Assembly: GCF_910592395.1 (NCBI RefSeq)
Contig: NC_088310.1
Coordinates: 9,743,501-9,807,500, forward strand
Origin: Lineus longissimus
Taxonomy: Eukaryota > Nemertea > Pilidiophora > Heteronemertea > Lineidae
DNA length: 64,000 nucleotides
Direction of reading: 5' to 3'
Notes under the pieces: model-generated
Databases searched by the model: none
The model's input: only the letters and a program-made list of their open reading frames with translations
Told to the model about the DNA's origin: nothing
Translations under genes and position numbers: made by a program
Shown: positions 15,401 through 52,305 of the stretch, piece after piece
How the letters are laid out: every line of letters begins with the position of its first letter
How positions within the stretch are numbered: position 1 is the first letter of the stretch

Positions 15401-18400
15401 ATATCAGCCGGTGGAAGGAGCTCATACTTGAAACTTCTTCCTTTTCCAGGAAAACTTTTATACAGGCAATGAAGTTGAAGATGCAGAAACCAAAGAAGCT
15501 GTGATCAATCTTTTGAATATTATAAAGTAAGTTTCGTTCTGCATGCGTTATAAATGAAAGAGAACTCCTTGCCAATCAGACATGCCTTTACCATGACGAA
15601 GGGCTAAAGCCTGCAGCACACTAGCCGCCAACTTCGGCGTTCACAGGCATTTTTTGTGCAAGAGTCCTGAACGCCTGAAAAATCCCTAGTCTGCTACGAA
15701 CGGTGTCGGTGAACGCGACTTGACGCTACTTGCCGCAACTAAACGCCAAATATCTAACATGTTTGATTTTTGACGCGTGACGCCACGCTTGAACGCAAGA
15801 AAAAGCCAGGTGTGCTACGGATGGTTGCCTGACTTGGCGTCGGCGGCGAGGCTATGGCCAATCAGCTTGTGTCTTGATGTCACATGATATCAAAATGGCA
15901 GCCTAAAGTGGCGGAAAAGACGCTACTGGACGCCAATTGTGGGCAGGTGTGCTCTGACCGGGATCCACTGGCTGCCAACTTTGGCATCGAGAGGCGTCAG
16001 GCAAATGCTTCTTGTTGCCAAAGTTGGCGGCTAGTGTGCTGCAGGCTTAACTCCAGATGGGACAAACCATTCTCCAGATAAAGGAGTTCCTATCGGGTCA
16101 TACCCATTCACTCATGACCTGGCCACGAGTGCTACCTGCTTCATGGTAAAGTGAAGCCAGTATTAAAGTGACTGCAGATATTTATCCAAACAAAATCGTA
16201 CGATCTGATGATAATCATCTGCTGTCACGTACCAGCGGGTTGCTTGGTGTTTGCTCTAAGTCCAGTCTGTTTACTTCTGATGGAATAAAACTTGTATTTG
16301 ACTTGATAAATCTCGATTTTCTATTCTAAACTTTTGTCTTGTTACAGATCTTTCCCAGAGCAGTTTGATGAGAGTAAACTATTTACTGATGACACTGTAG
16401 AAACTTTAAAACTAAAGGTGAGTTTAATGTTGTTAGACCATATCCACAACTCCGTGGATATGGTCTATTGTTTTTACTGAGCCGATCGCCAGTACCCGAG
16501 GGATGTGGTTTTCGACACGTATCTCCGAAACTGCCGCACGGAACGACCTGGAATTTGGTTAGGTTACGTTTCATAACCTGCTAACGAACAACGTGTACTT
16601 TATTTTTGCAGCCGTTGCTTACTTTTTTAGTTTTCGGGTGATTTTTGATGAAAATCGCCGGTTCTGAACCGTTCCGGTAATAGCACTGCCTCCCGCGTTT
16701 TTACCGATTAGGCAAGTTGCTCAACGTTGATCTGTCCCGACCTGAACAGGTGGGAGGATACCCGCTACATGGAAGAGCCAACAGACATTTCGTCTACGCA
16801 TTCTAGACTGGGTGAGTGTGATTTTTTCGTGATTGTAATCGCCCTCAAATTTGTGTTGAAACACTGCATCAGACAAAATGAACTCATCAGAGGTCATGAA
16901 AAGGATCTTAAGAATATATATTCGCTGTTAGTTTGGGTGATTATAGGGAGCACGTCCATCTTTTGAGGCAAACTTGTCATCCGAAAGTTTCCAGATCCCC
17001 GCAATGGCGGATATACATTCATCAAAAAAATTACGAATTCGGGCAAGTTTCATCAAACTGTGCGCCTTAAACACCTAAGAATGTCTCAAAATCACCCAGA
17101 CTCTACACATGAGATATACCTTCACTGAAAATAATTGCTAAAACCTCGCTTAACGTGTCGCGAGTGCTGAAAGCAACAGTTTTGGAGATCGTTTTTCTGT
17201 ACATCCTGCTCACTCCTGTAGAAATGTACAGTAAAGCACGTATACACGTGCAGTGTAAATGGACACACGAATGTACACACCTTCTGAAAATATTGTCAGC
17301 AAAGGTGATAAGTGTTTGTTCTGAATTATGACAATGAAATTCATAGACTATTAGCAGGTAGTCAGTGTCTGTTGGTCTGAATAATGAATGATAAAACTTC
17401 TGGTGAAGTTAAAATATTTCCTCGCTCTGTTTTACAGCCTGACGCAGTGACGGGGATGATCAGCATCTGTTCTGTTCTGCGACCGCATCAGTCACGGATA
17501 TAGGAGCCTTGACCACGAGGAGCTGATGAGGCAAAGTCGTATAACCGTCTTAACCTTGACATCGGTGCAGTGCTGAATTTGCCGTCCGAAGACAAACCAG
17601 TATAATATTCCAGCCGTATTTCGTTCTTTTCACTGTAATTCTTTTACTTCAAAAAGACTGAATAAATAAACCTGCTGTGGCAGTTAGTTTAAAAAGATAT
17701 TATTGCATTTTACGTTTTTACTCTTAGTGCTGATCGGTCATACCCCTTGGGCCTGGCCGTAACCTTGCATACTGGTTGCCTCGATGCCGTATGCTATGAC
17801 CATGTATATATCTACTGGACTGGTTTGTTGCACCATGTCGAAGGAATTTTATGTAGAGATCAAGACACTTCCCTCACATCACAATCTACACCTCAAAAGA
17901 ATGGTTGTAAAAATCCTTGCCATGATTCCCGGTTGCCCCTATGTTGTGACCATGCATGCATCAATGGCCTGGGATGTTGCAACCTACACTTCAAAGGAAT
18001 GCGAAGTCTAAATCACATTTATTTTTTGTCCCCAGGTTGTGACTTTCCTAACAGCAATTGCAGACCATATCCCTGGTGATAGTGTTTTGTCATCTTAAAA
18101 ATGAGCACCAGGACAAAGCACCAAAAACCTGCCACTTAAGATCAGATCAGAAGTTACCTACGTGGTGCCAGTACCCACAAGTGCATGATTGACACCTAGA
18201 TCATTTGAAGAAAAAATTGGCAGCAGAACCATGTGTGCGTGGAGGGAGGTATTATAATATAAATACTGTGGAGACGCAATGTATTATTGGTCGTCCCAAC
18301 ATTGGGAGCTTTCATCCCCACCAGCCATATCAGATGGCCAACTGGTTTCCCTCACTCGACCAAAAAACTCATCAAAAGATACGAAAGATGTTGAGATTCA

Positions 18401-21400
18401 GATTACATTTGCTTGTTGTCTGCTGGATTCTGACCATCCATATGCTGAGTTGTTGCAGTCCCAGAACCATCGCTAATTCTAGTATTTATGATGCACCTAC
18501 TGTCACAACCTAATTCAGCTGGTTATTCAGGGTTATTTGCCTCTGATTTATCTGGTTATATCCTGGTGCAAACCTAATTTCTCAACATGACAAAATACTT
18601 TCACCAGGGATATGGTCTGCAATTTGCTGTTAGGCGAATTGCCCAATACTAGTTCAATTTGTTGTAGTTTGTGACCTTAAAGGGACTCTATAGGCAGCAG
18701 CCAGGTAGGCTAGTAAAAGTTACACATAGTCACCAATAGGGGTCGCTCACATTTCACAGTATGTCAAAACTATTCACTTGTTATGAAGAATACATTTAGA
18801 AATGAATCGAACATGACTCGGTGCCATTACTGGGTTCACCTGAATATGGCCAATTCGAACCCCCTGCTCCTGCCTATAGTCCTCCTTTAAGCCTTAGCCA
18901 TAGCTCAGGTATAATGAAGGAATTGGTACCAAACTGGAGGTATTGGTTTGCTGGAGCTAAAATGTAGGTGAAATGACAGATCTACCTGAGTGGTGTTTGG
19001 TGAGACAACCAGTACCCACAGTGAGGTATCAATTTCTATTCTAAAACACCTCAAATGCAAGATTTTGACTGCCTCAATACTTTGCACCAACCAAAAGTGG
19101 TTATATCCTTGTGAAGATTAGTCGTCCAGGTATCGTAGTAATTCCATGAAAGGTTAAAGTGATACTATGATGTGATTTACAACTTTGCGAAAATGCGTCC
19201 GTTTTTAATTGTTGATCAAATTTTTCAAATTTTCCATTTTTGATTAGATTTATTATAAAATCACTGAATGTAAACCACAGCGACCGCGAAAATGTTCATG
19301 TTGTGACGTCATCAACGAAAACGGCATCAAGCGAGCCGTCCGGGCAGGATTAAACCATCAATTCGTAGAAAATGTGCATTTCGATTCGAAAACCTTACCG
19401 ATTTATGAGAAAGTGACGTAGTCATTTGTCAAAAACAGCTAAAACATTATATGGTGAAATTTGACACGAGTTACCCTTTAAGTCGAATGACTACTGGATT
19501 AAGAGAGAAACTTACAGAACGTTTCGATTAGCATCCGCCATTCCTCGTCAGCTGATCTACTGCTGTTGTTGTTGTCGTTGTTCGGTACGGGAATTTTCGG
19601 AAGTGTGTCTCGAGAGGGCGGGGTCCCAGGTACCTGAAAGTTCCACTCGTAATCTTCAATGGTTGCCTCATTATAACCGCTGCTGCCAAAATGAGGCACA
19701 GTGCTTCATACACAGTAGACAGTGCTGCCTTGTAACCAAGGCATTTAAAAAAAACAATCTCAACGATGCAAGTGTTATAAGATACCTGTCTCTCTCATAT
19801 TTATAGATATTAGTCAGATATTTATCACAATGAGTATCAAAGTCCATTATCACTGGAGACTGCAGCTCCATACCTTGTCTTATCTTTTCTGTTCTTCTCT
19901 TTTTCAGGAGGATTTCCGACAAAAATTCCACAATATATCCAAAATCATGGATTGTGTAGGCTGTGATAAATGTCGATTATGGGGAAAATTACAGGTTAGT
20001 TTGGGTGAAGATAACATCTAAATGTGAAGTGTTTCAAAATAATGAGGTTTAGAGAGTTTAGCACGATATAGAGGGCTGTTTTGGGAGTGTCAGAAAATGT
20101 ACACAATTCTTTACAAACTGTTTGTGCACATTTTCAGATATACAGTAGAACCTCTCTATTAAGGACACCCTGGGGACTGACAGGTGCTGTCCGTAATAGA
20201 GAGGTGTCCTGATTAGAGAGGTCAAATTGAATGGAAACACCCAATTTTGGACCAAAACTAGTGTCCTTAATAGAGAGGGCATCCTTAATTGAGAGGTGTC
20301 CGCTAAGGGAGGTTCTACTATACATCCATTGTGCCCTCTACAACTCTTTAAATATCATAAGTGCCGACATTGTATTATTTTTAGACACTCCTCTTTTAAC
20401 ATTCTATGTTTCAAAATAAATTAATGGTTAAACAACTCAATTGTGAGGTGAGGTCCTTTTGGTGTTCGGTGATGTTGTTAAAATGCCAGGCCTTTGACTG
20501 TAAAACATTTCACCAGAAAATGACACTAAGATTTGAGGCTCACACAGCTACTGTCATCAGTCTCAACCCTCTCTTTGGTCTGCAGCCTGTCTAGATTTTT
20601 CCCCCGGGTTGGACCAAGCTGCCAAGCTTCTTTTCTTTCGTACAGCGGCAAGTTTGACATTTAATGTATAATCATTTTCATAAATGTGACCCACCGCGGC
20701 AAAATGAGTCGCATGTCGCACAGAAGATGAGCCTAAAATGACGCCAGAAAATAACAGAAGAAATTGATGCATTCAGATTTCACGAAAGGCAGACAACAGT
20801 GAAATGAACAACCAGTGCGTCTCAACCTGTCAAGCTCGCAGCGACATGCGACTCATTTTGTCGTGGTGGGTCACAAATGTTCATCATCTTTTAACCTGTT
20901 TGTTCATCTTGCAGACTGTGGGTATGGGCACCGCCCTAAAAATTTTATTCTCCGGTGATGTTGGGCCGGATGCCACCCTCTCCGCCTCCTCAAAAACAAA
21001 ATTCCAGCTTAGAAGAACAGAGATTGTGGCGCTTTTTAATGCATTTGCTAGGTAGGTCATATAATAGGATATCGGTTGAAAATCACTACTGGGTAGGAAA
21101 TGTCAGGGGCTATTGTAAGCAATAATATCATATTATTCCCGGCGTCATTACCCTGGATTTTTGCCGGAGGTATGGAGTCCACTATAGGCTACTGTCCACC
21201 TATGTGGGATCTTTTACTTGCCCTGGCATAGACAATCGGTACAAGGGACCACGGCTTTTAGTCTCATCCGACAGACCCTCGAATAGTTCATACGTTGTAG
21301 CCTACGTGTTGTGAAGAGCCAGGAATTTTAGTACCTTGAAAGCCGCGCCGGTTCATCCAGAAATACAATCCTGGGTTCTCCCCGGGATCGAACCTGGGCC

Positions 21401-42810: not shown

Positions 42811-42854
42811 GTAGTATAGGTGTGCGCTCAGACAGGCTGTTTACCATTCTCAAG

Positions 42855-45800
42855 GTTGGTTGTGACTATACTAGATACGATCAGGTCATCTTAACAGTCC
42901 CTGCGTCGCCTCCTCCCAACCTCACGAGGTTGGTTGTGCCTATACTAGATACGATCAGGTCATCTTAACAGTCCCTGTGTCGCCTCCTCCCAACCTCACG
43001 AGGTTGGTTGTGCCTATACTAGATACGATCAGGTCATCTTAACAGTCCCTTTGTCGCCTCCTCCCAACCCCATGAGGTTGGTTGTGTCTATACTAGATAC
43101 GATCAGGTCATCTTAACAGTCCCTGTGTCGCCTCCTCCTAACCCCACGAGGTTGGTTGTGCCTATACTAAATACAATCAGGTCATCTTAACAGTCCCTGT
43201 GTCGCTTCCTCCCAACCTCACAATGTTGGTTGTGACTATACTAGATACGATCAGGTCATCTTAACAGTCCCTGTGTCACCTCCTCCTAACCCCACGAGGT
43301 TGGTTGTGGCTATACTAAATACGATCAGGTCATCTTAACAGTCCCTGTGTCGCTTCCTCCCAACCTCACGAGGTTGGTTGTGACTATACTAGATACGATC
43401 AGGTCATCTTAACAGTCCCTGTGTCGCCTCCTCCCAACCTCACGAGGTTGGTTGTGTCTATACTAGATACGATCAGGTCATCTTAACAGTCCCTGTGTCG
43501 CCTCCTCCCAACCTCACAAGGCTGGTTGTGACTATACTAGATACGATCAGATCATCTTAACAGTCCCTGTGTCGCCTCCTCCCAACCTCACGAGGTTGGT
43601 TGTGACTATACTAGATACGATCAGGTCATCTTAACGGTCCCTGCGTCGCCTCCTCCCAACCTCACGAGGTTGGTTGTGACTATACTAGATACGATCAGGT
43701 CATCTTAACAGTCCCTGCGTCGCCTCCTCCCAACCTCACGAGGTTGGTTGTGACTATACTAGATACGATCAGGTCATCTTAACAGTCCCTGTGTCGCCTC
43801 CTCCCAACCTCACGAGGTTGGTTGTGACTATACTAGATACGATCAGGTCATCTTAACAGTCCCTGTGTCGCCTCCTCCCAACCTCACGAGGTTGGTTGTG
43901 ACTATACTAGATACGATCAGGTCATCTTAACAGTCCCTGTGTCGCTTCCTCCCCACCTCACGAGGTTGGTTGTGACTATACTAGATAAGATCAGGTCATC
44001 TTAACAGTCCCTGTGTCGCTTCCTCCCAACCTCACAAGGTTGGTTGTGTCTATACTAAATACGATCAGGTCATCTTAACAGTTCCTGTGTCGCCTCCTCC
44101 CACCCCACGAGGTTGGTTGTGACTATACTAAATACGATCATGTCATCTTAACAGTCCCTGTGTCGCCTCTTCCCAACCTCACGAGGTTGGTTGTGTCTAT
44201 ACTAGATACGATCAGATCATCTTAACAGTCCCTGTGTCGCCTCCTCCCCACCTCACGAGGTTGGTTGTGACTATACTAGATACGATCAGGTCATCTTAAC
44301 AGTCCCTGTGTCGCCTCCTCCTAACCCCACGAGGTTGGTTGTGTCTGTACTAAATACGATCAGGTCATCTTAACAGTCCCTGTGTCGCCTCCTCCTAACC
44401 TCACAAGGTTGGTTGTGACTATACTAGATACGATCAGGTCATCTTAACAGTCCCTGTGTCGCCTCCTCCCAACCTCACAAGGTTGGTTGTGACTATACTA
44501 GATACGATCAGGTCATCTTAACAGTCCCTGTGTCGCCTCCTCCCAACCTCACGAGGTTGGTTGTGACTATACTAGATACGATCAGGTCATCTTAACTGTC
44601 CCTGTGTCGCCCCCTCCTTACCCCACGAGGTTGGTTGTGTCTATACTAGATACGATCAGGTCATCTTAACAGTCCCTGTGTCGCTTCCTCCCAACCTCAC
44701 GAGGTTGGTTGTGTCTATACTAGATACGATCAGGTCATCTTAACAGTCCCTGTGTCGCTTCCTCCCAACCTCACAAGGTTGGTTGTGTCTATACTAAATA
44801 CGATCAGGTCATCTTAACAGTTCCTGTGTCGCCTCCTCCCACCCCACGAGGTTGGTTGTGACTATACTAAATACGATCATGTCATCTTAACAGTCCCTGT
44901 GTCGCCTCTTCCCAACCTCACGAGGTTGGTTGTGTCTATACTAGATACGATCAGATCATCTTAACAGTCCCTGTGTCGCCTCCTCCCCACCTCACGAGGT
45001 TGGTTGTGACTATACTAGATACGATCAGGTCATCTTAACAGTCCCTGTGTCGCCTCCTCCCAACCTCACGAGGTTGGTTGTGTCTATACTAGATACGATC
45101 AGGTCATCTTAACAGTCCCTGTGTCGCCTCCTCCTGACCTCACGATGTTGGTTGTGTCTATACTAGATACGATCAGATCATCTTAACAGTCCCTGTGTCG
45201 CCTCCTCCCCACCTAACGAGGTTGGTTGTGTCTATACTAGATACGATCAGGTCATCTTAACAGTCCCTGTGTCGCCTCCTCCCAACCCCACGAGGTTGGT
45301 TGTGACTATACTAGAAACGATCAGGTCATCTTAACAGTCCCTGTGTCGCCTCCTCCCAACCTCACAAGGTTGGTTGTGACTATACTAGATACGATCAGGT
45401 CATCTTAACAGTCCCTGTGTCGCCTCCTCCCAACCTCACGAGGTTGGTTGTGACTATACTAGATACGATCAGGTCATCTTAACTGTCCCTGTGTCGCCCC
45501 CTCCTTACCCCACGAGGTTGGTTGTGTCTATACTAGATACGATCAGGTCATCTTAACAGTCCCTGTGTCGCTTCCTCCCAACCTCACGAGGTTGGTTGTG
45601 TCTATACTAGATACGATCAGGTCATCTTAACAGTCCCTGTGTCGCTTCCTCCCAACCTCACAAGGTTGGTTGTGTCTATACTAAATACGATCAGGTCATC
45701 TTAACAGTTCCTGTGTCGCCTCCTCCCACCCCACGAGGTTGGTTGTGACTATACTAAATACGATCATGTCATCTTAACAGTCCCTGTGTCGCCTCTTCCC

Positions 45801-47005
45801 AACGTCACGAGGTTGGTTGTGTCTATACTAGATACGATCAGATCATCTTAACAGTCCCTGTGTCGCCTCCTCCCCACCTCACGAGGTTGGTTGTGACTAT
45901 ACTAGATACGATCAGGTCATCTTAACAGTCCCTGTGTCGCCTCCTCCCAACCTCACGAGGTTGGTTGTGCCTATACTAGATACGATCAGGTCATCTTAAC
46001 AGTCCCTGTGTCGCCTCCTCCTAACCTCACGATGTTGGTTGTGTCTATACTAGATACGATCAGATCATCTTAACAGTCCCTGTGTCGCCTCCTCCCCACC
46101 TAACGAGGTTGGTTGTGTCTATACTAGATACGATCAGGTCATCTTAACAGTCCCTGTGTCGCCTCCTCCCAACCCCACGAGGTTGGTTGTGACTATACTA
46201 GAAACGATCAGGTCATCTTAACAGTCCCTGTGTCACCTCCTCCCAACCCCACGAGGTTGGTTGTGACTATACTAAATACGATCAGGTCATCTTAACAGTC
46301 CCTGTGTCGCCTCCTCCTAACCCCACGAGGTTGGTTGTGACTATACTAGATACGATCAGGTCATCTTAACAGTCCCTGTGTCGCCTCCTCCCCACCCCAC
46401 GAGGTTGGTTGTGACTATACTAGATACGATCAGGTCATCTTAACAGTCCCTGTGTCGCCTCCTCCCAACCTCACGAGGTTGGTTGTGACTATACTAAATA
46501 CGATCAGGTCATCTTAACAGTCCCTGTGTCGCCTCCTCCTAACCCCACGAGGTTGGTTGTGTCTATACTAGATACGATCAGGTCATCTTAACAGTCCCTG
46601 TGTCGCCTCCTCCTTACCCCACGAGGTTGGTTGTGTCTATACTAGATACGACCAGGTCATCTTAACAGTCCCTATGTCACCTCCTCCTAACCTCACGAGG
46701 TTGGTTGTGTCTATACTAGATACGATCAGATCATCTTAACAGTCCTTGTGTCGCCTCCTCCCAACCTCACGAGGTTGGTTGTGTCTATACTAAATACGAT
46801 CAGGTCATCTTAACAGTCCCTGTGTCGCCTCCTCCCAACCTCACAAGGTTGGTTGTGGCTATACTAGATACGATCAGATCATCTTAACAGTCCCTGTGCC
46901 GCCTCCTCCTTACCCCACGAGGTTGGTTGTGTCTATACTAGATACGACCAGGTCATCTAAACAGTCCCTATGTCACCTCCTCCTAACCTCACGAGGTTGG
47001 TTGTG
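42855..47005. repeat. 74-bp satellite array, left block
   Basis: About 56 head-to-tail monomers of 74 bp (GAGGTTGGTTGTG..CTATACTAGATACGATCAGG...). Some are 73 bp. Most monomers contain the dyad CCAACCTC-AC-GAGGTTGG. From about 44.0 to 46.2 kb the variant order repeats at 887 bp (12 monomers). Array continuity is broken by the recombinase elements at 47006. Confidence 0.97.
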
Positions 47006-47689
47006 ATAGCACCCCACGTGACTCCATCCAATCGTGTGCTCATGAGGAAGAGTATTGGGAGGAACTGAGCACGACATCTGCAAAAGCAGAAAAGCGAAAG
47101 GACGGATAACTAGGGTGGGTGGGTGGGCAAAGCAAACGTCTCAAGAAAGCTGACGACGCTATTTCTAATGTATGAACTAGGCCTATCAATTAGACGAGTG
47201 CATGTTTTTAACTCTCAAGTACATATTTGGAGAGGTTTTGAAAAAATATTTGCTGTGGCAAGTCTACAGATATAAAGAAATTATTTGATGAAAAAATTAA
47301 TTTCGAATTTTGCTAATTGGGTAATAGGGGGCATGTTTTGAGTTTTTCTGCCAGTTGGCTAAAAAGAGTGGAAATATCAAAGTCTGTCTAATTTGTCAAT
47401 TATCAAAAAAATTCCGTGGTCAACTACCAGTTTATTTTTCACCATTTACTTGCCCGACTCTCCGGAATAACATAATCTAAATTTCAGATTCACAACCCCA
47501 CGCAGTATTTGATGCGTCGCGGTCAAACTTTGACAATTTAACTGCTAAAAGGCTTAAAAAATCAATTGTGGTCTTGTCTCCTCGAACGGGACAGCTGGGG
47601 AGCAGCCATTCTCCTCCCCTCTCGGGGCAAAAGGCTGAATGAGGCCGAACAAAAGGACTTCGCACACTCGTCGATGAAGTCACGTGGGG
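47006..47689. mobile_element. Non-autonomous companion element (684 bp), head-to-tail with the recombinase element
   Basis: Its left about 75 bp matches the left end of the 2589-bp element (CCCCACGTGACT, then GAGGAAGAGTATTGGGAGGA) and its right about 66 bp matches the right end (AAGGCTGAATGAGGCCGAAC and GATGAAGTCACGTG). The interior is unrelated and shows no coding potential. It is bounded by TGTG at 47002-47005 and 47690-47693. Its ends suffice to define it as mobilised in trans by the recombinase. Confidence 0.75.
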
Positions 47690-47710
47690 TGTGATAGCGC
47701 CCCACGTGAC
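47679..47710. promoter_or_regulatory. lox-like recombination site at the junction of two elements
   Basis: Arms GTCACGTGGGGTG (47679-47691) and CGCCCCACGTGAC (47698-47710) are inverted with 12 of 13 matches, around the 6-bp spacer TGATAG. This arm-spacer-arm layout is that of known tyrosine-recombinase core sites (loxP, FRT). The crossover word TGTG (47690-47693) overlaps the left arm/spacer boundary. It equals the joined ends expected on an excised circle. Confidence 0.7.
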
Positions 47711-50282
47711 TACATCCAATCGTGTGCACATGAGGAAGAGTATTGGGAGGAACTGAGCACGACATTCCTTCAATTTCGAATGCGCCAGGCAAAATCTCGC
47801 TCATTCCTATTCCAACACTCCCACCACTCCCAAAACTCCTATAACTTCTCCAACGCGTGAAAGAAAATTATACAAGGCGGATATATCTTATACAGAGATA
47901 CTTTTATTCCTTTGAACCAAGAGTACATGTATATACGTGACATACGGCTACAGAAACGGGAGTTAACATGATGCAAACGCAAAACGTATTATTACCGAAA
48001 TCACTTTAGTGAGAATGATGATAGAAGCTAGAACTTGATGAAGAGTTTTGGTTCAGGGGCCTGCGATTACCGTGATATAGAAGTCCTCGTTGTGAACATG
48101 TATGCATGCATATCATTGAATTAATGAACTAATGTCATTGAATGAGCGCTTACAATCGTATTTTGTGCTGAATCAGATTTGCGTGAAAATTATATAGCGC
48201 TGGCGGCAAGGCATTAAAAGATGCATACTGCTCGAACTCTCTTTCCAGCCCGAGTGGTGCACTTGAGGAGCTAGCCAAACTACGGGCAACGGCGATAGCT
48301 CGCTTTAACGAGCCTTCCCTAGTGTAATAAGCATAATATTTTCTTGTCGACCAACCCACGTGCCTCATCGTGTCGGTGGCGATCGTGTCGGTGGCGTTAC
48401 TTTCACGAGGGTGTAGAGGTTGCTGCGTATCAGAAAGTGCTAGGATGATAGAGCAACCCGCTCTTATGCTGTGAGGGGTCTCACCCTGGTATATGCCGAG
48501 GGTACGTAGGTAATGGATCAGGCGATGATACATAGTAGTGTATGATACGGGTTTATTTAAGACGGTACCATTTTCCGATACCACTCTAAAGAGATAACCT
48601 AAGGAGAGATCCACCGCCCATGAACGAGCCCAGCTTACATAACGGTCAAGACCCGCAATCGGGCAGGTAGCAACATTGGCACAGCGTGTAACCGTGAAAG
48701 TGTTGCAAACGCCGGTAGCCCCCCTAATCGCTTTTGTGAAGGAGTGCGATATCGCCACACCCGAGTTGTCCGTGAATCGCCGCACACCTCTATAAAGTTG
48801 GCTTGCGACTCTGCCTAAATCACTGGCACGATCTCCCGCAAAGAATTGAAGTTTGAAATAAGCTTGATCTCTATGTAGAGCGAAACGTTGCCTTGGCGAC
48901 AGGTTACTACGAGTTATTTGATCATCAATATAGGCGGCAATTTTGATAATTTTTGAGAGAAACTTGGGCTTGGCCTGAGTGGGAACAACCTGAGCTCTTG
49001 CTTGCTCCCCTGCTATATGTTTTATGTACGCTTTAACGAGCGGAGATGCCGCCGGGTTTCCCGCGCCTAGGATGTCACAATAGGAAGTACCTCTACCGCA
49101 TTCTCTAAAGATGGCTTTATTCTTTGTTCCAACTCTGATGCAATAAAGCTTGCAAATTTAGCACAGGAGGGCGAATTTTGGAACGACTCAGTGGCTGTAC
49201 TGTTGCGACATAGGGTCGTCAGGGGGAAGAATTTCATCCCAAGAACTGGCATGCTCGTGCAACTGGCCGGCAACGAAATTATCTGGGTCTCTTAGGGCAA
49301 TACTATTTACATCAAAGCTTAGCCGCCGGGAAAAATCGTCCTCAAATTTTGGGCAAAATTGGGCGGGGAGTTGGGCTTTCTGTCCCTTGAGGTTTACCCA
49401 GCTTGGCGAGAACCTTGCAGAGCGCGAAGCTGACACCGGATCAAATGGCGTTTTAGTTCCCATGTTGGCACGTTATACGCTCTAAAGCGTTGATTCTGCA
49501 AAACAAATAGAGGATACATTTAGGAAGGACAGAAAGCTCTCAACCCCCCACCCACGTGAAAAAGATCACTAGGGAAGTTACCCCGGGTGGAAGTAAAGAG
49601 CTCAACAAGGGCGCTATTCCTTGTTATCTGACATGGGTTTAGGAACTCCAGGCTTTGTACTTACGAAACAAGGGACACAAATGCCGGCTTAGAAATTTTG
49701 CTCTTGCCCGCATAGCTAGGAATCGCCCGAAAATTCTAAAATTACGCAAGGGCGAACTGACAGCTCGTAGGGTGACTCTGACGTAAGCTTGCCCAATATA
49801 TGTGTGCACTGTCTGGCTTTGGCGATGTAAAATTGTAGAAAATTTTATAGTTCGAATCAGACTAAAAAATAGTCGAGCGTGACTTCCCCTATTATAATCG
49901 CCTATCGGCGCGTTCAGAGAGGAACTGCAACGCCCGATTCATCTCCACTGTGCTCACTGGCGAGCCTACGCAAGACTCCCAAGGCGACAGTTTTTACATA
50001 TATATATCTCTGGCTCGAGCACGCCCCCCAATGGTCTGCTACGATGCCGTCCCCCCTAGCGGAGCGAAGAAGCTCCCTAGGGTGACCCGAAGAAAGATAG
50101 ATAAAGAGCCGTGTGAGATTCAGGCAAGCCTGAGAGGAAAGACACAAAATACTCTGGTCGAAAATCCGAGAAAAGCAAAATGGACAGGAGGGAAAGCCAG
50201 TCGACCGACCAAAGAGGCGACAAAAGGCTGAATGAGGCCGAACAAAAGGATTTCGCACACTCGTCGATGAAGTCACGTGCGG
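47694..50282 (-). mobile_element. Autonomous tyrosine-recombinase element (2589 bp) in the 74-bp satellite
   Basis: Left terminus ATAGCGCCCCACGTGAC and right terminus GTCACGTGCGG, with TGTG at both edges (47690-47693 and 50283-50286). The termini are inverted repeats of each other. The satellite resumes exactly at 50287 (TCTATACTAG). The recombinase gene (48150-49463) reads toward the left end, leaving about 0.46 kb 3' and 0.8 kb 5' non-coding sequence. Orientation is given by the recombinase. Confidence 0.8.
48150..49463 (-). CDS. Tyrosine recombinase of a mobile element (N-terminal frame breaks)
   Basis: The catalytic part lies in one frame, about 49150 down to the stop at 48150. It carries the tyrosine-recombinase signatures in order: box I Arg in FFAGDRASDLGRV (Arg codon 48830-48828), HSIR (H-x-x-R, 48473-48462), HVGW (His 48362-48360) and KYYAYYTR with the candidate nucleophile Tyr (about 48340-48325). 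A core-binding-like helical region (VKAYIKHIAGEQARAQVVP onward) precedes it. The N-terminal part begins at ATG 49463 (MGTKTPFDPVS) but continues in two other frames (49463-49188, then about 49273-49125), so either short introns or one to two indels separate it from the catalytic frame. No reverse transcriptase is encoded nearby, which argues against a DIRS/Ngaro retroelement. It is Crypton-like in having only a YR. It presumably catalyses excision and integration of the element that contains it. Confidence 0.85.
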
Positions 50283-52305
50283 TGTGTCTATACTAGATAC
50301 GACCAGGTCATCTTAACAGTCCCTATGTCACCTCCTCCTAACCTCACGAGGTTGGTTGTGACTATACTAGATACGATCAGGTCATCTTAACAGTCCCTGT
50401 GTCGCCTCCTCCCAACGTCACGAGGTTGGTTGTGTCTATACTAGATAGGATCAGGTCATCTTCCCTGTGTCGCCTCCTCCCAACCTCACGAGGTTGGTTG
50501 TGTCTATACTAGATACGATCAGGTCATCTTAACAGTCCCTGAGTCGCCTCCTCCCAACCTCACGAGGTTGGTTGTGACTATACTAGATACGATCAGATCA
50601 TCTTAACAGTCCCTGTGTCGCCTCCTCCCAACCTCACGAGGTTGGTTGTGTCTATACTAAATACGATCAGGTCATCTTAACAGTCCCTGTGTCGCCTCCT
50701 CCCAACCTCACGAGGCTGGTTGTGTCTATACTAGATACGATCAGGTCATCTTAACAGTCCCTGTGTCGCCTCCTCCTAACCTCACAAGGTTGGTTGTGTC
50801 TATACTAGATACGATCAGGTCATCTTAACAGTCCCTGTGTCGCCTCCTCCCAACCTCACGAGGTTGGTTGTGTCTATACTAGATACGATCAGGTCATCTT
50901 AACAGTCCCTGTGTCGCCTCCTCCTAACCCCACGAGGTTGGTTGTGACTATACTAGATACGATCAGATCATCTTAACAGTCCCTGTGTCGCCTCCTACCA
51001 ACCTCACGAGGTTGGTTGTGACTATACTAGATACGATCAGATCATCTTAACAGTCCCTGTGTCGCCTCCTCCTAACCTCACGAGGTTGGTTGTGACTATA
51101 CTAGGTACGATCAGATCATCTTAACAGTCCCTGTGTCGCCTCCTCCTAACCCCACGAGGTTGGTTGTGACTATACTAAATACGATCAGATCATCTTAACA
51201 GTCCCTGTGTCACCTCCTCCCAACCTCACGAGGTTGGTTGTGCCTATACTAGATACGATCAGGTCATCTTAACAGCCCCTGTGTCGCCTCCTCCCAACCC
51301 CACGAGGTTGGTTGTGCCTATACTAGATACGATCAGATCATCTTAACAGTCCCTGTGTCGCTTCCTCCTAACCTCACGAGGTTGGTTGTGTCTATTCCAG
51401 ATACGATCAGGTCATCTTAACAGTCCCTGTGTCGCCTCCTCTCCACCTCACGAGGTTGGTTGTGTCTATACTAGATACGATCAGGTCATCTTAACAGTCC
51501 CTGTGTCGCTTCCTCCCAACCTCACGAGGTTGGTTGTGTCTATACTAGATACGATCAGGTCATCTTAACAGTCCCTGTGTCGCTTCCTCCCAAACTCACG
51601 AGGTTGGTTGTGTCTATACTAGATACGATCAGGTCATCTTAACAGTCCCTGTGTCGCCTCCTCCTAACCTCACGAGGTTGGTTGTGTCTATACTAGATAC
51701 GATCAGGTCATCTTAACAGTCCCTGACTCGCCTCCTCCCAACCCCACGAGGTTGGTTGTGACTATACTAGATACGATCAGGTCATCTTAACAGTCCTGTG
51801 TCACCTCCTCCTAACTCCACGAGGTTGGTTGTGACTATACTAGATACGATCAGGTCATCTTAACAGTCCCTGTGTCGCCTCCTCCTAACCCCACGAGGTT
51901 GGTTGTGACTATACTAGATACGATCAGGTCATCTTAACAGTCCCTGTGTCGCCTCCTCCCAACTCCACGAGGTTGGTTGTGACTATACTAGATACGATCA
52001 GGTCATCTTAACAGTCCCTGTGTCGCCTCCTCCTAACCCCACGAAGTTGGTTGTGACTATACTATATATGATCTGCTCATCTAATAACTGTCCTTATATC
52101 ACCATTTCTAACCCAAGGAGGTCGGTTGTGGATATACTTCATATGATCAGGTCATATTGACAGTTTTGTGTACATGTAGCCTCTTCTTATTCTCACAGTG
52201 ATGGTTTTCCTCCTCTCTATCCCATGAGGTAGTTGTGACTGTACATGATACGATCAGGTTCTATTTACATGCTGACTCAGTGCTGCCTCCTCCGAAAATC
52301 TCGAG
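50283..52305. repeat. 74-bp satellite array, right block with decayed edge
   Basis: About 24 further monomers in the same orientation, continuing the monomer interrupted at 47005. From 52080 to 52305 the last three units are heavily diverged and the array fades into flanking DNA. Confidence 0.95.

Follow-up and report, generated by a model that had tools for sequence, protein, structure and literature searches.

What is the short palindrome that lies beside a tyrosine recombinase (YR) gene in the ribbon worm Lineus longissimus, and to what kind of mobile element does it belong? The palindrome occupies positions 47679-47710 of a 64,000-nucleotide stretch of contig NC_088310.1 (hereafter the window). 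An earlier note on this DNA had read it as the joint between two tandem YR elements and had proposed it as a recombination core. The sequence comparisons presented here point instead, with a probability of about 0.86, to the internal B1/A2 junction of a single non-autonomous, internally deleted YR retroelement of the DIRS order, of the ALOG-YR type.

The palindromic joint

The joint is composed as follows.

47679-47710, no strand: lox/dif-like joint, 13-bp arm, 6-bp spacer TGATAG, 13-bp arm
47679-47691: left arm, GTCACGTGGGGTG
47692-47697: spacer, TGATAG
47698-47710: right arm, CGCCCCACGTGAC

The arms pair at 12 of 13 positions around the spacer, so that the 13-6-13 architecture described earlier is borne out, and the dyad continues outward with 24 of 30 positions paired, including a distal GCACAC/GTGTGC box. 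Pairing of at least 12/13 around a 6-bp spacer is expected by chance at a mean of 0.05 sites per window (60 first-order Markov simulations, 3 of which contained one or more such sites), and was reached by 2 of 2,000,000 random joins of window sequence. A 62-nt segment around the joint, folded as single-stranded DNA, reaches −19.9 kcal/mol (z = −5.6), a value matched by none of 200 shuffles. When the genome (391,118,348 bases, 30 contigs) was searched for the pattern, the 32-bp joint was found 17 times at up to three mismatches, 16 of them perfect, and the reversed control was never found. The unpaired position occurs in the window copy only, the other 16 of the 17 joints being paired at 13/13; the 12/13 of the window is therefore a private mutation of a 13/13 site.

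Several other features of the window were recorded. A second 13-6-13 site, paired at 13/13, lies at 16435 and is apparently unrelated to the joint. The perfect 14-6-14 inverted repeat at 16434-16467 stands directly 3′ of a likely splice donor, and its arms are similar, at 3 mismatches in 14, to the ends of another inverted-repeat element, the 559-bp one that occupies 18061-18619, which has long terminal inverted repeats (CAGACCATATCCCTGGTGA...) and is possibly a MITE; the 16434-16467 repeat is perhaps a deletion form of that element rather than a YR joint. An arm-like 13-mer (10/13) at 49548-49560, some 90 bp upstream of the RT remnant's first ATG, may be an extra binding site or a chance resemblance. 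The window also contains an ankyrin-repeat frame with many ankyrin matches, one of which covers most of its length and is to a myosin phosphatase subunit; an exon-like frame bearing splice signals was noted by eye. Both frames suggest an animal host.

Layout of the inserted unit

The joint lies within an inserted unit flanked on both sides by satellite DNA.

47004-50284, minus (coding) strand: whole inserted unit, 3281 bp, inserted in a 74-bp satellite without loss or duplication
50221-50284, minus strand: A1, 5′ split direct repeat, 64 bp
47692-47765, minus strand: B1, split direct repeat, 74 bp, whose last six nucleotides on the coding strand (CTATCA) are the spacer
47628-47691, minus strand: A2, split direct repeat, 64 bp, abutting B1
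47004-47077, minus strand: B2, 3′ split direct repeat, 74 bp
47179-47580, no strand: 402-bp piece inside the 3′ part
42853-47003, no strand: 74-bp satellite left of the insertion
50285-52082, no strand: 74-bp satellite on the right side, whose phase matches that of the left part once 3281 bp are removed

The phase of the satellite is kept across the insert (distance 3355 = 74 + 3281). The ends of the unit are split direct repeats in the arrangement A1 ... B1/A2 ... B2, with A of 64 bp and B of 74 bp, and on the coding strand the joint lies downstream of the YR. With the spacer counted, the joint divides the unit into parts of 688 bp (47004-47691) and 2593 bp (47692-50284), to which the earlier lengths of 684 and 2589 bp come close. 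The two parts have their left 74 bp and right 64 bp in common, and blastn between them detected no further significant similarity besides these shared ends and the inverted arms. In 13 units (12 copies and the window) the inner left end agrees with the outer one over 74 bp and the inner right end with the outer over 64 bp, and the differences between paired repeats are mutations almost all private to one copy. The 402-bp piece also has matches by itself at about ten further places in the genome, and the old copy L076 lacks it; the piece is probably a later insertion. Copies L059-L069 carry some 90-110 bp more than the window at 49189-49191, where the window copy has probably suffered an additional loss close to the old deletion joint. 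The window's satellite register bears a weak similarity to the arms (rank 2 of 74), which 136 of 2000 shuffled arms equalled.

Coding content

Three coding features were recognized in the long part.

48153-49157, minus strand: 335-aa open frame with a YR catalytic domain
49227-49454, minus strand: remnant of the RT-frame start, residues 15-90 of a relative's 394-aa frame, 41% identity
49115-49204, minus strand: RT-frame remnant, residues 132-161, followed at about 49113 by the deletion joint to the YR

A profile built from 34 prokaryotic YRs (33 bacterial and one from a viral contig, query excluded) scores the window YR at 50.7 bits, whereas the highest-scoring of 1000 shuffles reaches 5.6 bits and the best other ORF 3.1 bits (264 ORFs, the YR itself among them); L035 and L044, which contain stops, were left out of the prokaryotic alignments. 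In a 31-row alignment R110, K142, H229, R232 and Y278 of the frame are invariant, W269 matches, and at H266 most relatives have Y. Profile score and catalytic residues thus agree that a YR gene adjoins the joint. Cre is the top fold match of the structure model (TM 0.43), itself modest (pLDDT 61.7, pTM 0.55) and built on an alignment of distant prokaryotic YRs; prediction without an alignment gave pLDDT 40. On this model the ORF is a predicted Cre-fold tyrosine recombinase. Among plasmid proteins the best match has E = 6e-4, and 19 of the best 20 of 85 records are annotated as integrases or recombinases. The window YR found no match in Pfam or NCBIfam, with none to Pfam DUF3504 at E ≤ 1; a PDB sequence search with the single protein returned nothing useful, no close relatives were found in viral and bacterial contigs, and a phage collection gave one weak match (E = 0.6). 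The element ORFs scanned contain no Pfam domain at all.

The catalytic residues that the earlier note had reported are present, but the enzyme is not complete. The stretch 49112-48195 aligns to residues 119-408 of the 408-aa YR of a related family, F2, so that the window YR lacks the first 118 residues and with them most of the ALOG DNA-binding domain, and such units are unlikely to supply the whole enzyme. The same truncation recurs in the 13 other two-part units, whose RT-frame matches run up to residue 161 or 168 and whose YR match starts at residue 119 (110 in L068; in L077 the match stops short). The deletion in L075 is a different one, and the YR of L076 is older and more complete. The window unit is without most of the RT, the RNase H and most of the ALOG domain, and the RT-frame remnant together with the truncated YR marks the unit as a non-autonomous deletion derivative. 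An intron in the YR gene had been considered, with 20 in-frame GT-AG solutions, none of which was needed once the deletion was recognized. The YR frame also holds a perfect 15-bp tandem duplication (48367-48396), between the HxxR and H/W boxes.

Copies, ends and targets

A genome DNA search with the unit gave at least 83 matches, copy counts being lower bounds in which the best candidates were scored, and 20 copies were fetched with their flanks. Both parts are present in 13 of these (L059-L069, L077, L078), the short part alone in five (L070-L074) and the long part alone in one (L075); one is old and rearranged (L076). In all 14 two-part units, the window included, the order is identical and the gap between one right end and the next left end is 0, and the flanks of most two-part copies are unrelated to each other. 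TGATAG begins all 20 intact left ends (that of L074 is lost), and right ends finish GTCACGTGGGGTG with few exceptions, namely GTCACGTGCGGTG in the window and one change in L074. The comparison of other copies' ends that the earlier note had proposed therefore found the arms in place, not unrelated ends: they are conserved at all 20 intact left ends and at the right ends seen.

In the left flank of the unit, G stands at position −4 in 18/19 cases, T at −2 in 16/19, G at −3 in 11/19 and G at −1 in 10/19, a preference that resembles GGTG, the last four bases of the right arm. Expressed as a target, this is GNTN left of the unit on the plus strand, or NANC on the coding strand, the start of A. End-to-end counts exclude L074, L076 and L077, each with one end missing, and in the right-flank tally the row for L076 is false, its end being lost. 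Eleven of the 18 insertions having both ends lie within a tandem array. There the joined 20-mer without the unit recurs in neighbouring repeats at 0-1 mismatches in 10 of 11 arrays (four mismatches in L072), and joins with six bases removed on either side show 3-9 mismatches; the target-duplication test is informative for these 11 insertions and uninformative for the other seven of the 18. As the empty sites recur intact, insertion was exact where testable, without duplication or loss, and the spacer belongs to the unit. From these exact insertions at the same boundary we strongly infer that the joint is a recombination junction.

Insertions in tandem arrays exceed expectation, 11/18 compared with a tandem-array share of 15.7% in the window when the satellite is left out (binomial 1.5e-5) or of 22.8% when it is counted (5e-4), the background being that of one window and 3 of the 11 insertions lying in one satellite family. 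These three, L062, L071 and L065, share a 68-bp satellite family; L062, which has both parts, and L071, which has the short part alone, stand in the same register, and L065 in the opposite orientation. None of nine F2 right flanks starts in an array.

Related families and the 13-6-13 site

A genome search with the window YR protein returned at least 124 matches, many of them 40-58% identical. The YR of F2 is about 55% identical to that of the window. Nine F2 copies are 98.7-99.7% identical over the roughly 3.1 kb compared, and the YR match is stop-free in seven of them (L086, L087, L088, L090, L091, L092, L094), which suggests recent spread. F2 contains RVT_1 (4.3e-8) and ALOG (6.9e-20) domains above the Pfam cut-offs, and zinc-knuckle (5e-4) and RNase H-like (0.009) matches below them; the RT-RNase H frame of L086 has an in-frame stop. 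ALOG stands N-terminal to the YR in F2 and also in L097 (9.9e-23), the scan of L098, L105 and L108 having covered part of each. Downstream of the YR in L086 lies B1 (72 bp, identical to B2 at the 3′ end) and directly after it A2, which matches the upstream A1 of L111 at 98.8% over 81 bp; the 5′ end of F2 is known from this one copy.

The arrangement A1-[ORFs]-B1A2-B2, the YR catalytic residues and the absence of a target site duplication all accord with the DIRS order. RT and RNase H are found in F2 (the RNase H-like match below cut-off), and the window holds an RT-frame remnant only. DIRS and PAT elements have a methyltransferase domain and Ngaro elements do not; no Pfam match to such a domain was obtained in the F2 stretches scanned. 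By these sequence features the window family is of the DIRS order, ALOG-YR type, its superfamily being DIRS1-like, PAT or Ngaro.

Twenty-six other loci were inspected downstream of the YR and fell into 13 groups by shared site sequence (L103, L104, L115 and L117 counted as one group each). Nine of the 13 have a 13-6-13 imperfect palindrome at B1/A2 with the last six bases of B as spacer, and each of the nine representatives has an exact second copy of arm and spacer at B2, followed by unrelated flank. Pairing out of 13 is 11 in F2, 10 in L097, 11 in L098, 11 in L105, 10 in L108, 10 in L112, 12 in L114, 11 in L116 and 11 in L107. Spacers mostly differ (TGTTCA, TGTGCA, CGTATA, GCCATA, AGGTAA, TGTGCA, CGTAGT, CTTTGG, AGCAAA). 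A comparison of ten downstream sequences, 16,383 positions in all, gave 16 positions with pairing of at least 10/13, a total that takes in the nine sites; for some groups, the best palindrome close to the end of the repeat was taken as the site. Within groups, pairing is one lower in L087 and L100, and B2 is changed in L095. The site of L103 is weak (9/13, no B2 copy), and no 13-6-13 site was found at the repeat junction of L104, L115 and L117.

Competing explanations

One could suppose two independent YR DNA transposons, one autonomous and one short and non-autonomous, adjacent because a resident end is the best target, in a tandem accretion like that of ICEs. Both halves do occur alone (L070-L074 short, L075 long), the unit's right end carries a target-like GGTG, and accretion would yield the same joint. 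Against this, all 14 two-part units have one order and no gap, one deletion is common to the window and 13 others, 16 of 17 joints are identical, and relatives with RT or a longer YR have the B1A2-B2 plan within one element; solo units, moreover, are also expected from split-repeat recombination, as solo AB repeats. We regard independent elements as improbable, and the "two tandem elements" of the earlier note become one retroelement derivative of fixed order, A1 ... B1/A2 ... B2, whose halves also occur singly.

The same note had suggested a Crypton-like or uncharacterised YR transposon class. Such a class, with inverted arms, a YR alone and no RT, would agree with window copies that have a YR and no RT domain and with YR transposons reported to lack target duplications (PMC3627910), and deletion units of a retroelement could have turned into DNA-only movers. 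It is opposed by the RT-frame remnants in the window and 13 other two-part units, by a relative whose ends are organized alike and which carries RT, by the missing DUF3504 match at E ≤ 1 in Pfam, and by a YR that lacks its N-terminal 118 residues and is unlikely to be the whole enzyme. With RT in F2 and the family placed in the DIRS order, ALOG-YR type, this explanation is very unlikely. Membership of the Cryptons themselves, as YR-only elements without RT ancestry, was rejected on the same remnants. Least probable of all, at a negligible level, is a DDE cut-and-paste transposon bounded by short inverted repeats and flanked by a 4-bp target duplication, which the window alone could suggest, TGTG flanking each part and terminal inverted repeats being present. 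Several observations count against it: the other copies show no duplication, TGATAG is part of the element, the empty site is intact in 10 of 11 tandem arrays, no Pfam domain occurs in the element ORFs scanned, and the sole recognizable enzyme is the YR. The apparent TGTG duplication arises as the satellite happens to supply TG in the window.

Proposed mechanism

The reading of the joint as the B1/A2 junction of a deleted DIRS-order element builds on features documented by sequence comparison, namely the repeats, the arms, the copies, exact insertion, the RT-bearing relative and the common deletion. B1/A2 would be a stored copy of the junction of a circular DNA intermediate, i.e., the recombination (att) site. 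The YR would join B to A in the circle and bind both 13-bp arms in the manner of Cre or Xer, and the circle junction would recombine with a genomic site that has about 4 bp in common with it (NANC on the coding strand). Integration would then put A on one side and B with the 6-bp spacer on the other, with no target duplication. RT and YR would probably be supplied in trans by fuller relatives; among the copies found, none was a full-length parent bearing the ends of the window family itself. Recombination of the joint with an outer end would generate solo A2-B2 units, like solo LTRs, and a solo A1-B1 unit.

The spacer stays on the B side in 20 of 20 cases in the window family, and likewise at all nine F2 right ends. 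In a symmetric Cre or Xer reaction with unmatched spacers, the spacer is expected on either side. The constant side could arise if (a) identity is needed and exchange takes place at the spacer/A border, or if (b) one strand is exchanged and replication settles the product, as the strand bias of SE elements might suggest. One-strand, replication-settled recombination resembles that of integron cassettes and SE elements. A bolder proposal, doubtful at present, is that of an animal YR retroelement class whose split-repeat junction carries a 13-6-13 att site of the dif/lox type, in which one-strand exchange at the spacer/A border is settled by replication and the arms are the ancestral target of the ALOG domain. 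That domain is now used by plant development regulators.

Comparison with known systems

The comparisons below draw on parts of the papers cited. The ALOG-YR class of DIRS1-type retroposons was described from several marine animals by Iyer and Aravind (2012), who predicted DNA binding by the ALOG domain, reported 159-bp terminal direct repeats in Ectocarpus and inferred that metazoan copies are inactivated (PMC3537659). Like that class, F2 combines RT and a YR with N-terminal ALOG, along with a weak Gag-side zinc knuckle, and ALOG is found in L097 as well. Unlike the class as published, the present elements have split direct repeats with a 13-6-13 site, and unlike the presumably inactivated metazoan copies, nine F2 copies are near-identical, with a stop-free YR in 7/9. 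The Ngaro/PAT-type plan, A1-[ORFs]-B1A2B2 (Hackl et al., 2021, PMC8547959; PMC4157794; PMC9210276), is shared in its repeats, in an internal joint downstream of the YR and in isolated AB repeats like solo LTRs; the solo short parts correspond to the isolated AB repeats of Cafeteria Ngaros (PMC8547959) and to SIRE in VIPER (PMC6681497). It differs in that the YR here comes with ALOG, and the parts of those papers covered describe no inverted-repeat site at B1/A2. DIRS1 likewise has a stored internal circle junction and duplication-free integration at a very short shared sequence, but inverted terminal repeats and a 3-bp junction in place of direct split repeats, a 6-bp spacer and 13-bp arms (Piednoel, 2011, PMC3266345).

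The sites of Cre, Flp and XerCD (loxP, FRT and dif) have inverted arms of 11-13 bp and spacers of 6-8 bp (PMC3212892, PMC8371274), and the joint falls within this geometry. Two inverted arms around a short spacer are common to both, and Cre is the nearest fold of the modelled enzyme; here, in contrast, the inherited crossover appears to lie at one spacer border rather than being symmetric, and function is predicted. SE-6945 and SE-6283, for which strand bias has been reported (Nonaka, 2022, PMC9345347), resemble the present elements in imperfect inverted end repeats, a 6-bp circle spacer, a target without inverted repeats and strand bias, but are bacterial, with 19-bp repeats and a locus-dependent spacer, whereas the spacer here is constant within a family. 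Cryptons share a YR, a circle model and a short shared core at insertion, but have no RT and a DUF3504-type YR, and animal Cryptons are reported to be without terminal repeats (Kojima and Jurka, 2011, PMC3212892). YR transposons were likewise stated to lack TIRs (Bao and Jurka, PMC3627910). This reported lack of end repeats explains the surprise of the earlier note at such symmetric arms.

Implications

The kind of element is known, its class having been described by Iyer and Aravind (PMC3537659). A description of a dif/lox-like site at B1/A2 was not found in the parts of the literature searched, the founding Ngaro and PAT papers lying outside that scope. In the portions covered, the integration of DIRS-order circles has so far been given as models from repeats, plus the 3-bp junction for DIRS1 (PMC3266345). 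With the present joint the likely substrate becomes readable in its arm length, spacer, 4-bp target core and crossover side, and ten families, the window's and nine others, display it with different arm sequences. One-strand versus two-strand exchange thereby becomes directly testable, and the joint offers a defined DNA probe for an ALOG-YR enzyme, and hence for the ALOG domain.
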